Origin: Psychrobacillus sp. FSL H8-0483
GTDB lineage: Bacteria; Bacillota; Bacilli; Bacillales_A; Planococcaceae
NCBI RefSeq assembly: GCF_038637725.1
Contig: NZ_CP152052.1
Span: 3,975,001-4,039,000 of the forward strand
DNA: 64,000 nucleotides
Direction: 5' to 3'
Shown here: positions 6,208 to 29,154 of the stretch, in pieces
Numbering within the stretch: position 1 is the first letter of the stretch
Layout of the letters: each line of letters begins with the position of its first letter
Translations under genes and position numbers: made by a program
The notes under the pieces: generated by a model
What the model was told of the DNA's origin: nothing
The model's database searches: none
Seen by the model: only the letters and a program-made list of their open reading frames with translations

Positions 6208-6400
6208 TTTGGCACCTCCTATAAGAATTGGCCATTTATACCGACAAAAGAAAAGCCTCTGATCTACTGGTAGACACAGAGGCAGAAAGTCATCATCTAA
6301 AAAGAATCTGAATTTGCTTGTCCTCGGTAGGATATTAAGTGACATGTCACTCCTACTGTCTTCGGTACAAATGTATATTTCACAACAAAAGTCATCTTAA
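6208..6400 (-). ncRNA. L10 leader (rplJ autoregulatory leader RNA)
   Basis: The minus-strand leader contains CCGAAGACAGTAGG and ATATCCTACCGAGG (about 6320-6366), the paired elements of the Firmicutes L10 leader, which binds the L10(L12)4 complex and mimics the 23S rRNA site. It is followed by a terminator hairpin and then the rplJ ribosome binding site. This is the arrangement of a feedback attenuator; the motif was recognised by eye, not by a covariance model. Confidence 0.8.
6245..6283 (-). terminator. Attenuator terminator in the rplJ leader
   Basis: On the minus strand GCCTCTG-TGTCTACC-AGTAGA-TCAGAGGC forms a long stem, followed by TTTTCTTTTG. It is placed between the L10-binding part of the leader and the rplJ start, so excess L10 would favour premature termination (established mechanism; its operation here is inference). 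Confidence 0.75.
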
Positions 6401-13429: not shown

Positions 13430-13720
13430 AAAAAAAGTCTCTGTCTATAAATATAGACAGAGACGCAAATAAGCGCGGTTCCACTCTGATTGGAAACATA
13501 TAAATATCTTTCCCACTTAGCATCTTTAACGCAGATGATACGTCCAGCCTACTATAATGTTCGGCATGGCACTCTGAGGTGCATTTCAGTAACTCATTGG
13601 CTCAGACCACTTTCAGCCGGTGATGGTCCTCTCTAAAGAACATGCGTTACTTACTTCTCCTCGTCTTAGCTTTTCTATTACTTCCGTTCGGAATTTGTAC
13701 CCTCATTTTCACACCTTACA
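13430..13720 (-). promoter_or_regulatory. Cysteine T-box riboswitch upstream of cysE-cysS
   Basis: On the minus strand: stem I with AGAGAG, the distal GCTGAAAGTGG loop region, a specifier region GAAATGCACC with TGC (13583-13581, a Cys codon), the T-box core TGGAACCGCG (13483-13474), and then the terminator hairpin GTCTCTGTCTATA/TATAGACAGAGAC (13437-13464) followed by seven T. Uncharged tRNA-Cys is expected to stabilise the antiterminator. The gltX-cysE location matches the known B. subtilis T-box. Confidence 0.93.
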
Positions 13721-25044: not shown

Positions 25045-25083
25045 TAAAAAAACCATGACTGCACGAATCAGCAATCATGGTTT
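25045..25083 (-). terminator. Terminator of the small peptide transcript
   Basis: AACCATGA/TCATGGTT stem with a 16-base loop, followed on the minus strand by TTTTTTTATAT. It lies 90 bases after the peptide stop codon and just before the rsgA start. Confidence 0.8.
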
Positions 25084-25175
25084 CCCGGTCATTAGTAAAG
25101 AAGCATCTCAAAAAGTGTAGCGAAATACATTTGTTTGTCTGTTACAAGCAAATGAAATGCATATTCGTTCTACAA

Positions 25176-25241
25176 TTAGAGACAAACGGAGTGGGACATC
25201 ATGAACTTACTGATTCGTTGATTAGTATTTACAATAGCCAT
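25176..25241 (-). CDS. 21-residue peptide gene with its own promoter and terminator
   Basis: ATG 25241 to TAA 25176 encodes a 21-residue peptide starting MAIVNTNQRISKF and ending SHSVCL. AAAGGAGTGA sits six bases upstream of the ATG, and a consensus promoter lies just before that, so this short frame is unusually well equipped for expression. The single cysteine is the penultimate residue. It lies downstream of, and on the same strand as, an ABC exporter. I do not recognise the sequence. It could be a signal or regulatory peptide, or the transcript (about 220 bases) could act as a small RNA. Confidence 0.6.
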   Translation of the reverse strand: MAIVNTNQRISKFMMSHSVCL

Positions 25242-25272
25242 AATGCCTCACTCCTTTCCTTAAGTTATTTTC

Positions 25273-25301
25273 AGAATACAACAATAATAAAATCTAGTCA
25301 A
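25273..25301 (-). promoter_or_regulatory. SigA promoter for the 21-residue peptide gene
   Basis: TTGACT (25301-25296), exactly 17 bases, TATTCT (25278-25273) on the minus strand. It overlaps the region just after the ABC permease stop codon. Confidence 0.75.
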
Positions 25302-28191: not shown

Positions 28192-29154
28192 TTAGTTATA
28201 TAAATGACACGCAACAAAATGTCCAGCTGCTTGTTCTTTCCATTCCGGCTTTTTATCTACACAAATATCCATTGCATGTGCACAACGTGTTCGAAATACA
28301 CAACCAGAAGGAGGATTTATCGGACTAGGCAACTCACCTTGCAATAGTATTCGTTCCCGTGATTCCTCTATATCGGGATCTGGAATAGGAATTGCTGATA
28401 ATAATGCCTGCGTATACGGATGCAAAGGATTATCGTATAACTGATTGCTCGTAGTTAGCTCCACCATATGTCCCAAATACATTACTCCGATGCGATCGGA
28501 AATATATTTCACCATGGATAAATCATGGGCGATAAACAAATACGTTAGCCCTTTTTCTTTTTGTAATCGCTGTAGCAATTTTACTACTTGTGCTTGAACG
28601 GAAACGTCTAGTGCTGAAATTGGTTCGTCTGCAATAATAAACTCAGGGTCTAGAGCTAGTGCTCGAGCAATACCGATACGCTGTCTTTGTCCACCTGAAA
28701 ATTCATGTGGATAACGATTGGCATGATCTCGATTGAGCCCCACATCTTCTAACAACTTATACACTCTCGTTTTTACCTCTTCTTTAGAGTTATACAGTTT
28801 ATGAACTTCCATTGGTTCCGCAATAATTTCAAGCACCGTGGACCGAGGATTTAGTGATGCATATGGGTCCTGGAAAATCATTTGCATCTTTTTCAAATAC
28901 TCTTTTCGTTCTTTCTCGCTCATTTCATGTACATTTTTTTCTTCAAACAGAACATTACCTTCTGTTTTATTGTACAATCCTAAAATCGTTCGTCCTGCAG
29001 TAGATTTTCCACAACCGGACTCTCCAACAAGACCAAATGTTTCCCCTTTTACGATATCAAAACTAATCCCATCTACGGCTTTTAATGTTTTTCCGTGACC
29101 AAGATCAAAATGGCGTTTTAAATCTTGTACGGACAAAAGAACTTGTTCCGTCAT
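28192..29154 (-). CDS. ykfD: Oligopeptide/murein peptide ABC transporter ATPase (YkfD/OppF type)
   Basis: OppF-class ATPase: Walker A GLVGESGCGKSTAGR near residue 45, the Q-loop MIFQDPYASLNPR, signature FSGGQRQRIGIARAL, Walker B FIIADEPISALDV, and the C-terminal oligopeptide-transporter extension with PSGCVFRTRC (iron-sulfur-like cysteine cluster region). It would pair with DppD as the second ATPase, since the dpp genes themselves encode only one. Last gene of the nine-gene operon, 11 bases after ykfC. 320 residues. Confidence 0.92.
   Translation of the reverse strand: MTEQVLLSVQDLKRHFDLGHGKTLKAVDGISFDIVKGETFGLVGESGCGKSTAGRTILGLYNKTEGNVLFEEKNVHEMSEKERKEYLKKMQMIFQDPYASLNPRSTVLEIIAEPMEVHKLYNSKEEVKTRVYKLLEDVGLNRDHANRYPHEFSGGQRQRIGIARALALDPEFIIADEPISALDVSVQAQVVKLLQRLQKEKGLTYLFIAHDLSMVKYISDRIGVMYLGHMVELTTSNQLYDNPLHPYTQALLSAIPIPDPDIEESRERILLQGELPSPINPPSGCVFRTRCAHAMDICVDKKPEWKEQAAGHFVACHLYN

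Follow-up and report, generated by a model that had tools for sequence, protein, structure and literature searches.

In ermC-type attenuation, a short upstream open reading frame (uORF) controls the release of a sequestered downstream Shine-Dalgarno (SD) sequence. In the leader of Bacillus subtilis vmlR, stalled ribosomes block an anti-antiterminator, and vmlR is switched on by drugs that stall ribosomes at initiation (PMC9226507). Stalled ribosomes likewise block an anti-antiterminator in rli80, the leader of Listeria monocytogenes hflXr, whose uORF carries RLR, the arrest motif of macrolide-sensing leader peptides (PMC6310831, where ermC-type translation attenuation is also named). A further uORF-containing RNA structure, the uORFC-6-1 motif before hflX in Bacillales, was found computationally (PMC8632094). 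The name rsgA is absent from the main text of the structured-RNA surveys PMC8632094, PMC11109978 and PMC6429828. Titles and abstracts of the open-licence PMC literature yielded, among the matches listed, no uORF, leader or attenuator of rsgA.

The window, by which we mean the whole stretch of 64,000 nucleotides of Psychrobacillus sp. FSL H8-0483 DNA that was analysed, contains what is most likely a vmlR/hflXr-like, ribosome-mediated attenuator in front of rsgA2, the name given here to a second RsgA-type GTPase gene. Comparison of sequences makes it probable that this segment acts in cis as a ribosome-sensing transcription attenuator of rsgA2. Re-reading of the sequence placed a promoter, a ribosome-binding site, a short frame and a terminator on the minus strand, in the rsgA2 5' leader between an ABC-2 permease gene (end 25309) and rsgA2 (start 25020). 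The SigA-type promoter, TTGACT-17-TATTCT, occupies 25273..25301 (TTGACT 25301-25296, TATTCT 25278-25273), and the uORF, also recognizable in homologous leaders, spans 25176..25241 with 21 codons and a TAA stop (MAIVNTNQRISKFMMSHSVCL), preceded by the SD AAAGGAG (25257-25251), which is part of region 1 and conserved in alignment A1. The regulated gene, rsgA2, runs from 25020 to 23977 on the same strand, begins with TTG behind the SD AGGAGG (25034-25029) and encodes a 347-aa RsgA-type GTPase, as judged from its sequence and domain match. The initial annotation had named the promoter, ribosome-binding site, 21-codon frame and terminator, and all are indeed present and conserved; we also agree that ordinary annotation would easily miss them. 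Its remark that they exceed chance holds for their conservation (17/18 genomes, 86 leaders) and not for the promoter match alone, as 10 kb contain 14 promoter-like matches against a shuffle mean of 27.

With vmlR the rsgA2 leader shares a uORF inside an anti-antiterminator hairpin, an antiterminator and an intrinsic terminator, and the TTNTTT NusG motif of vmlR has a candidate counterpart (PMC9226507). The vmlR uORF has 3 codons, however, against 19-29 in rsgA2 leaders; vmlR encodes an ABCF ATPase, and its switch is proven by experiment whereas the rsgA2 leader is known by comparison. With rli80 the likeness extends to the regulated gene, as both are uORF attenuators ahead of a ribosome-GTPase paralogue, and the other genomic copy of hflX is not involved in resistance; in contrast, the rli80 uORF has 14 codons with RLR, and the rsgA2 family leaders are without RLR (PMC6310831). 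The uORFC-6-1 motif resembles the rsgA2 leader as a computationally found, uORF-containing RNA structure ahead of a ribosome GTPase gene but differs in the gene itself, in its Arg-Leu-Arg peptide and in an RNA structure that lies wholly downstream of the uORF start codon (PMC8632094).

The same genome also encodes a canonical RsgA of 294 aa that is 32% identical to RsgA2, and we take the neighbours of its gene to be an rpe-like gene and one whose product resembles the C-terminal part of PrkC. RsgA2 has domain matches above cut-off to PF03193 (RsgA_GTPase, 184.5 bits) and TIGR00157 (184.1 bits) and also matches solved RsgA structures; by sequence, rsgA2 is a paralogue of canonical rsgA. The start of rsgA2 was picked as TTG or GTG with a strong SD ahead in 11 of 14 loci, one of the three ATG picks (L128) being probably wrong, and such starts perhaps keep basal rsgA2 expression low.

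Of the 18 other genomes available for the genus, 17 match the 290-base leader block, and the sole congener without it (G004) also lacks a match to rsgA2. Within Psychrobacillus, rsgA2 follows the leader in 18/18 loci, whereas the exporter permease adjoins it in 8/18; upstream of the other ten lies an OppF homologue 91-93% identical to one at 28192-29154 of the window. Because of this difference we assign the leader to rsgA2 and not to the exporter, so that neither the self-contained peptide gene of the initial annotation nor its tie to an ABC exporter can be retained, and an exporter-linked peptide was rejected. Of the roles it had offered, the regulatory one fits a conserved leader of rsgA2.

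The linkage extends through the family. A first covariance model, R1, found matches in 93 of 261 family genomes, and a second, R2, built from 88 aligned matches and applied at E<=0.01, found them in 176 of the 261 and in 16 of 19 genera, the order-level search covering the same 261 genomes. Where the surrounding DNA was examined, 82 of 84 model matches (59/60 + 23/24) are followed by rsgA2 in the same orientation, no more than about 0.5 kb away. A gene for rsgA2 (E<=1e-60) is present in 213 family genomes, and model matches, their position checked for 84 loci, occur in 174 of these against 2 of the 48 genomes without rsgA2; the remaining 39 of the 213 have no R2 match. At the class level, a search of 398 genomes at E<=0.001 gave matches in 23, and the single match outside the family again lies immediately before an RsgA gene (45% identity). 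The R2 match at about 1500-1690 of L196 (genome G085; E 5e-4) has a short frame and a hairpin and stands in a 3.2-kb locus without rsgA2, being either a chance match or the attenuator of another gene. Comparison thus shows both the parts of the leader and their linkage to rsgA2, and it strongly supports, at the level of sequence, a regulatory element of rsgA2. The tiny frame is very probably not a gene of its own; it would be the sensor of an RNA switch before rsgA2.

The 88 rows of the leader set correspond to 86 distinct loci, since L148 equals L053 and L046 equals L150, and exclude L146 (an extra weak match in G013 that is not before rsgA2) and L056 (whose leader is identical to that of L055); the doubled loci remain in the fold averages over genera and in a larger set of 107 leaders, and the key counts were redone on 86. 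A TTGAC-N17..19-TANNNT promoter is present in 81 of the 86 distinct leaders, compared with 0.5% of mononucleotide shuffles, a rate computed for the set with two loci counted twice (83/88). All of them (86/86, from 10 genera) contain an ATG-initiated uORF, 19-29 codons long, together with a hairpin of terminator type that carries a U-run.

The uORF is open in all 86 distinct leaders, and within a motif type the spacing from its AUG to the conserved motif changes in multiples of three. Offsets are 30, 33, 36 and 45 in Planococcus and 30, 39, 42 and 48 in Sporosarcina, where a match at 40 reflects a shift of the search pattern with the register unchanged on reading; a third motif type gives 33 and 36, its only other match, at 86, falling in an unrelated leader. 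A frame lost while the promoter stays, which the initial annotation had proposed to look for, is therefore not what these leaders contain. Comparison shows the frame to be conserved as coding, and translation is predicted. The peptide, in contrast, shows little conservation. Its codons 3-8 differ from species to species while frame, start signals and RNA pairings persist, indicating that the peptide sequence is not the main target of selection, and part of the conserved C-terminal half of the uORF serves as the pairing partner of the SD. RLR, the drug-arrest motif, occurs in none of the 86 family leaders, the window peptide included.

At residue 2 of the uORF, 82 of 107 leaders encode Ala, Ser or Thr (and 16 Val), compared with 15 of 46 genes of the window for the first three; this set counts two loci twice, and L176, one of 20 added loci, gave no start. 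An Ala/Ser/Thr context is linked to chloramphenicol/linezolid-type arrest. We considered the bias as a possible sign of such arrest; second-codon bias, pairing of the start codon and relatedness explain it equally well.

The RNA pairings read as a three-way switch, in which a 1:2 pairing would free the terminator (OFF) and a 2:3 pairing would disrupt it (ON). The leader transcript as a whole folds much better than dinucleotide shuffles (z -5.9). Region 1 (25238..25254) is the 5' strand of helix P2, the anti-antiterminator, and covers the uORF SD and AUG; in the predicted fold it pairs (25254-25238) with uORF codons 13-18 (25204-25188), the 3' strand of P2 in region 2 (25188..25204), and 94.6% of P2 cells are paired. 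Region 2 overall comprises codons 8-18, and its antiterminator strand, codons 8-17 (25192..25219), is also complementary to region 3 (25063..25086), the 5' arm and loop of the intrinsic terminator, which is recognizable in homologous leaders. Region 4 (25045..25062) supplies the terminator 3' arm and U-run. A further helix, P1, joins 25256..25262 to 25096..25102 with 90.6% of its cells paired and covaries at one pair (A-U in 18 rows, G-C in 11). Its 3' strand, located in the alignment, contains TTCTTT, which fits TTNTTT; this candidate NusG motif stands between stop codon and terminator in 18/18 Psychrobacillus and 43/86 distinct leaders, both being raw counts. The linker UAAUGACCGGG ahead of the terminator is conserved in most Psychrobacillus rows. 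An additional long-range pairing of the uORF start (GGCAUUA) with the linker UAAUGACC, which on inspection seemed feasible in Planococcus but weak in Psychrobacillus, was not adopted.

Swapping strands between genera separates the two pairings of region 2. Across the 86 distinct leaders, the antiterminator duplex reaches -26.9 kcal/mol with the leader's own terminator against -13.3 kcal/mol with terminators of other genera, and the own pairing beats every other-genus swap in 67/86 (69/88 with two loci doubled); relative to shuffles its mean z is -5.4 (range -8.2 to -2.1). The preference is uneven, as the own antiterminator of g12 (Paenisporosarcina) is hardly above the swaps (-19.6 vs -18.7) and 30% of swaps equal the own pairing in g5. 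For P2 the same test is weak, with -21.3 kcal/mol for the own strand against -16.2 for those of other genera and the own strand best in 15/86.

In 18/18 Psychrobacillus sequences the eight terminator-loop bases can pair with uORF codons 8-11, with compensatory changes, and over the 7 distinct rows 56/56 cells pair, compared with 9-22 of 35-49 cells when the register is slid by 1-3. These bases are unpaired in the predicted hairpin of 15/18 rows, the other 3 having a 6-base loop. Three positions covary with the pair kept, two changing from A-T to T-A (one also to G-T) and the third appearing as G-C, G-T and A-T. In alignment A1, which is uncorrected and has Planococcus rows off by one column at the terminator, the antiterminator columns hold 18 cells changed on both sides vs 7.2 in shuffles and 3 pairs with two-sided changes vs 2.0 (a value reached by 25/500 shuffles). 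The OFF structure holds 26 such cells vs 10.3, and its two-sided pairs (4) and pair types (21) are not above shuffles. Comparison of the sequences thus shows the anti-antiterminator, antiterminator and terminator to be mutually exclusive, with the antiterminator strong and P2 weaker in the swap test.

From these pairings we infer that the leader is transcribed and translated and that ribosomes control read-through in the following direction. Transcription would begin at the SigA promoter, which closely follows the upstream gene. In the default OFF state of the switch, the uORF SD and AUG would pair with codons 13-18 (1:2) and the terminator would form (3:4), giving only an RNA of about 220 bases. 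A ribosome halted in the start region or within the first few codons would block 1:2, leaving codons 8-17 to pair with the terminator loop and 5' arm (2:3); RNA polymerase would then pass the terminator, and RsgA2 would be produced. The position of the ribosome would be the signal and the peptide itself probably a by-product; the inducer would most likely be a drug or condition that keeps ribosomes on a start codon or close to it.

Equilibrium folding with the ribosome footprint kept unpaired, two crude approximations, is consistent with read-through prompted by stalled ribosomes. For the window leader the terminator has a probability of 0.95 without a ribosome; placing a ribosome on codon 1 brings the antiterminator to 0.63 and the terminator to 0.32, on codon 2 these become 0.25 and 0.70, and on codons 3-22 the terminator returns to 0.94-0.95. 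Averaged over genera, antiterminator and terminator stand at 0.44 and 0.48 when codon 1 is occupied, the ribosome-free values being 0.01 and 0.93, so that the shift is present and is not a clear win. When the transcript ends at the terminator loop, the antiterminator of the window leader scores 0.97-0.50 for codons 1-5, 0.00 for codons 6-15, 0.07 for codon 16 and 0.82-0.97 for codons 17-22, and without a ribosome 0.14 (Psychrobacillus mean 0.78). In these models a ribosome held at the start would be the clearest ON signal, and the antiterminator formed without a ribosome and at codons 17-22 leaves room for a leaky switch or for one that responds to late pauses.

We scanned named genomes with an rsgA2 alignment and analyzed the best 80 of 590 relatives (loci L199-L278, Planococcaceae included). 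R2 matches (E<=0.01) lie upstream of rsgA2 in 32 of these 80. Many Bacillaceae carry a leader of unrelated sequence with the same logic, setting a uORF segment CACAGCCC against a terminator arm GGGCUGUG. A uORF was picked in 77 of the best 80 loci by loose criteria without a base rate, the picks in L230 and L278 being likely wrong. An earlier duplex test was too permissive on the 80 loci, and an ungapped helix test was used instead. By this test, among the best 80 loci, pairing of the uORF to downstream sequence has p<=5/100 in 46/77 and p<=1/100 in 31/77, P2 passes in 16/77, 3:4 in 53/77 and all three helices in 9/77; the uORF-to-downstream helix fails in 31/77 and P2 in 61/77. Bulged antiterminators are missed by the ungapped test, as leader-bearing Planococcus and Sporosarcina loci failed it (for example L200, L202, L209-L211).

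In seven of the best 80 loci, from Oceanobacillus, Virgibacillus, Lentibacillus, Ornithinibacillus and Anoxybacillus (L252, L255, L258, L260, L261, L264 and L266), the partner of region 3 is the ribosome-binding site of rsgA2, for example as uORF GGAGGAA / UUCCUCC / SD GGAGGAA, and for this reason their output looks translational. Some rsgA2 leaders outside the family thus apparently mask the rsgA2 SD rather than terminate. Such Oceanobacillus-type leaders resemble the SD release of ermC-type attenuation, whereas the window leader would act on a terminator and not on an SD. RLR occurs in 3 of the 77 picked uORFs among the best 80 loci, all in Bhargavaea (L214-L216), where the peptides end in TRLRGAF; its place near the end of these uORFs suggests that some rsgA2 leaders could sense macrolide-type stalls.

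A cis-acting leader need not use its uORF as the sensor: a ligand or protein, as in a riboswitch or through a ribosomal protein or RsgA2 itself, might stabilize 1:2 or 2:3. The strong conserved structure, the linker UAAUGACCGGG in most Psychrobacillus rows and the covarying pair in P1 would suit such a leader, which we nevertheless consider improbable. A ligand-binding RNA would not need a frame, and the frame is kept through changes of spacing; moreover, the sequence is wholly different between families while the uORF logic is retained. A known Rfam element was rejected, as no family matched at gathering score in the window leader and no leader family in 14 other rsgA2 loci. The single Rfam hit at those loci is a purine riboswitch elsewhere, downstream of rsgA2 in Brevibacillus panacihumi (L226 2683-2784).

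Still less probable is an independent gene, either for a small protein (a signal, a toxin or a peptide associated with a transporter) or for a small RNA with a dual function, the terminator then ending the element's own transcript. That the segment has its own promoter, ribosome-binding site and terminator with a frame open in 86/86 distinct leaders is what such a gene would show, and the RNA of about 220 bases predicted for the OFF state could have a role in trans. Against both, the peptide varies while its pairing with the terminator is kept, swapped antiterminators lose half the energy, the linkage is to rsgA2 and not to the exporter, and many of the other Bacillales rsgA2 loci among the best 80 retain the logic with unrelated peptides. 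A trp-type attenuator sensing charged tRNA through particular codons shares the 1:2 / 2:3 / 3:4 arrangement but is very improbable, as the leader peptides, read by eye, contain no run of a single codon, codons 3-8 vary between species and the regulated gene encodes a ribosome GTPase rather than a biosynthetic enzyme.

With a ribosome-sensing attenuator as the preferred reading, the leader also bears on what RsgA2 might do. RsgA, which works on the 30S subunit, is a checkpoint of 30S ribosome assembly; the part of HflX is to split or recycle ribosomes. The parallel with HflX and HflXr, a housekeeping GTPase and its attenuator-controlled paralogue, is the basis of the role proposed here, in which RsgA2 may by analogy be a ribosome-repair or protection paralogue. 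In a broader and more tentative form, which we hold to be possible though somewhat short of an even chance, RsgA2 would be a stress-induced 30S GTPase and counterpart of HflXr, a duplicated assembly factor that repairs or protects drug-hit or stuck initiating ribosomes. It would be silenced across Bacillales by uORF switches whose sequences have been replaced repeatedly and whose output shifts between termination and SD masking with the logic kept. A second RsgA copy behind apparently ribosome-sensing leaders in many Bacillales suggests a response to translation stress rather than routine assembly, a testable claim on a widespread gene for which the family model carries just the name "ribosome small subunit-dependent GTPase A". 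For annotation more generally, an isolated "peptide gene" with its own terminator calls for a check of the next gene before a function is proposed.

Two other leaders on the minus strand of the window were recognized by Rfam, a T-box leader at 13456-13676 (RF00230, 116.7 bits) and a ribosomal protein L10 leader at 6240-6383 (RF00557, 73.4 bits).
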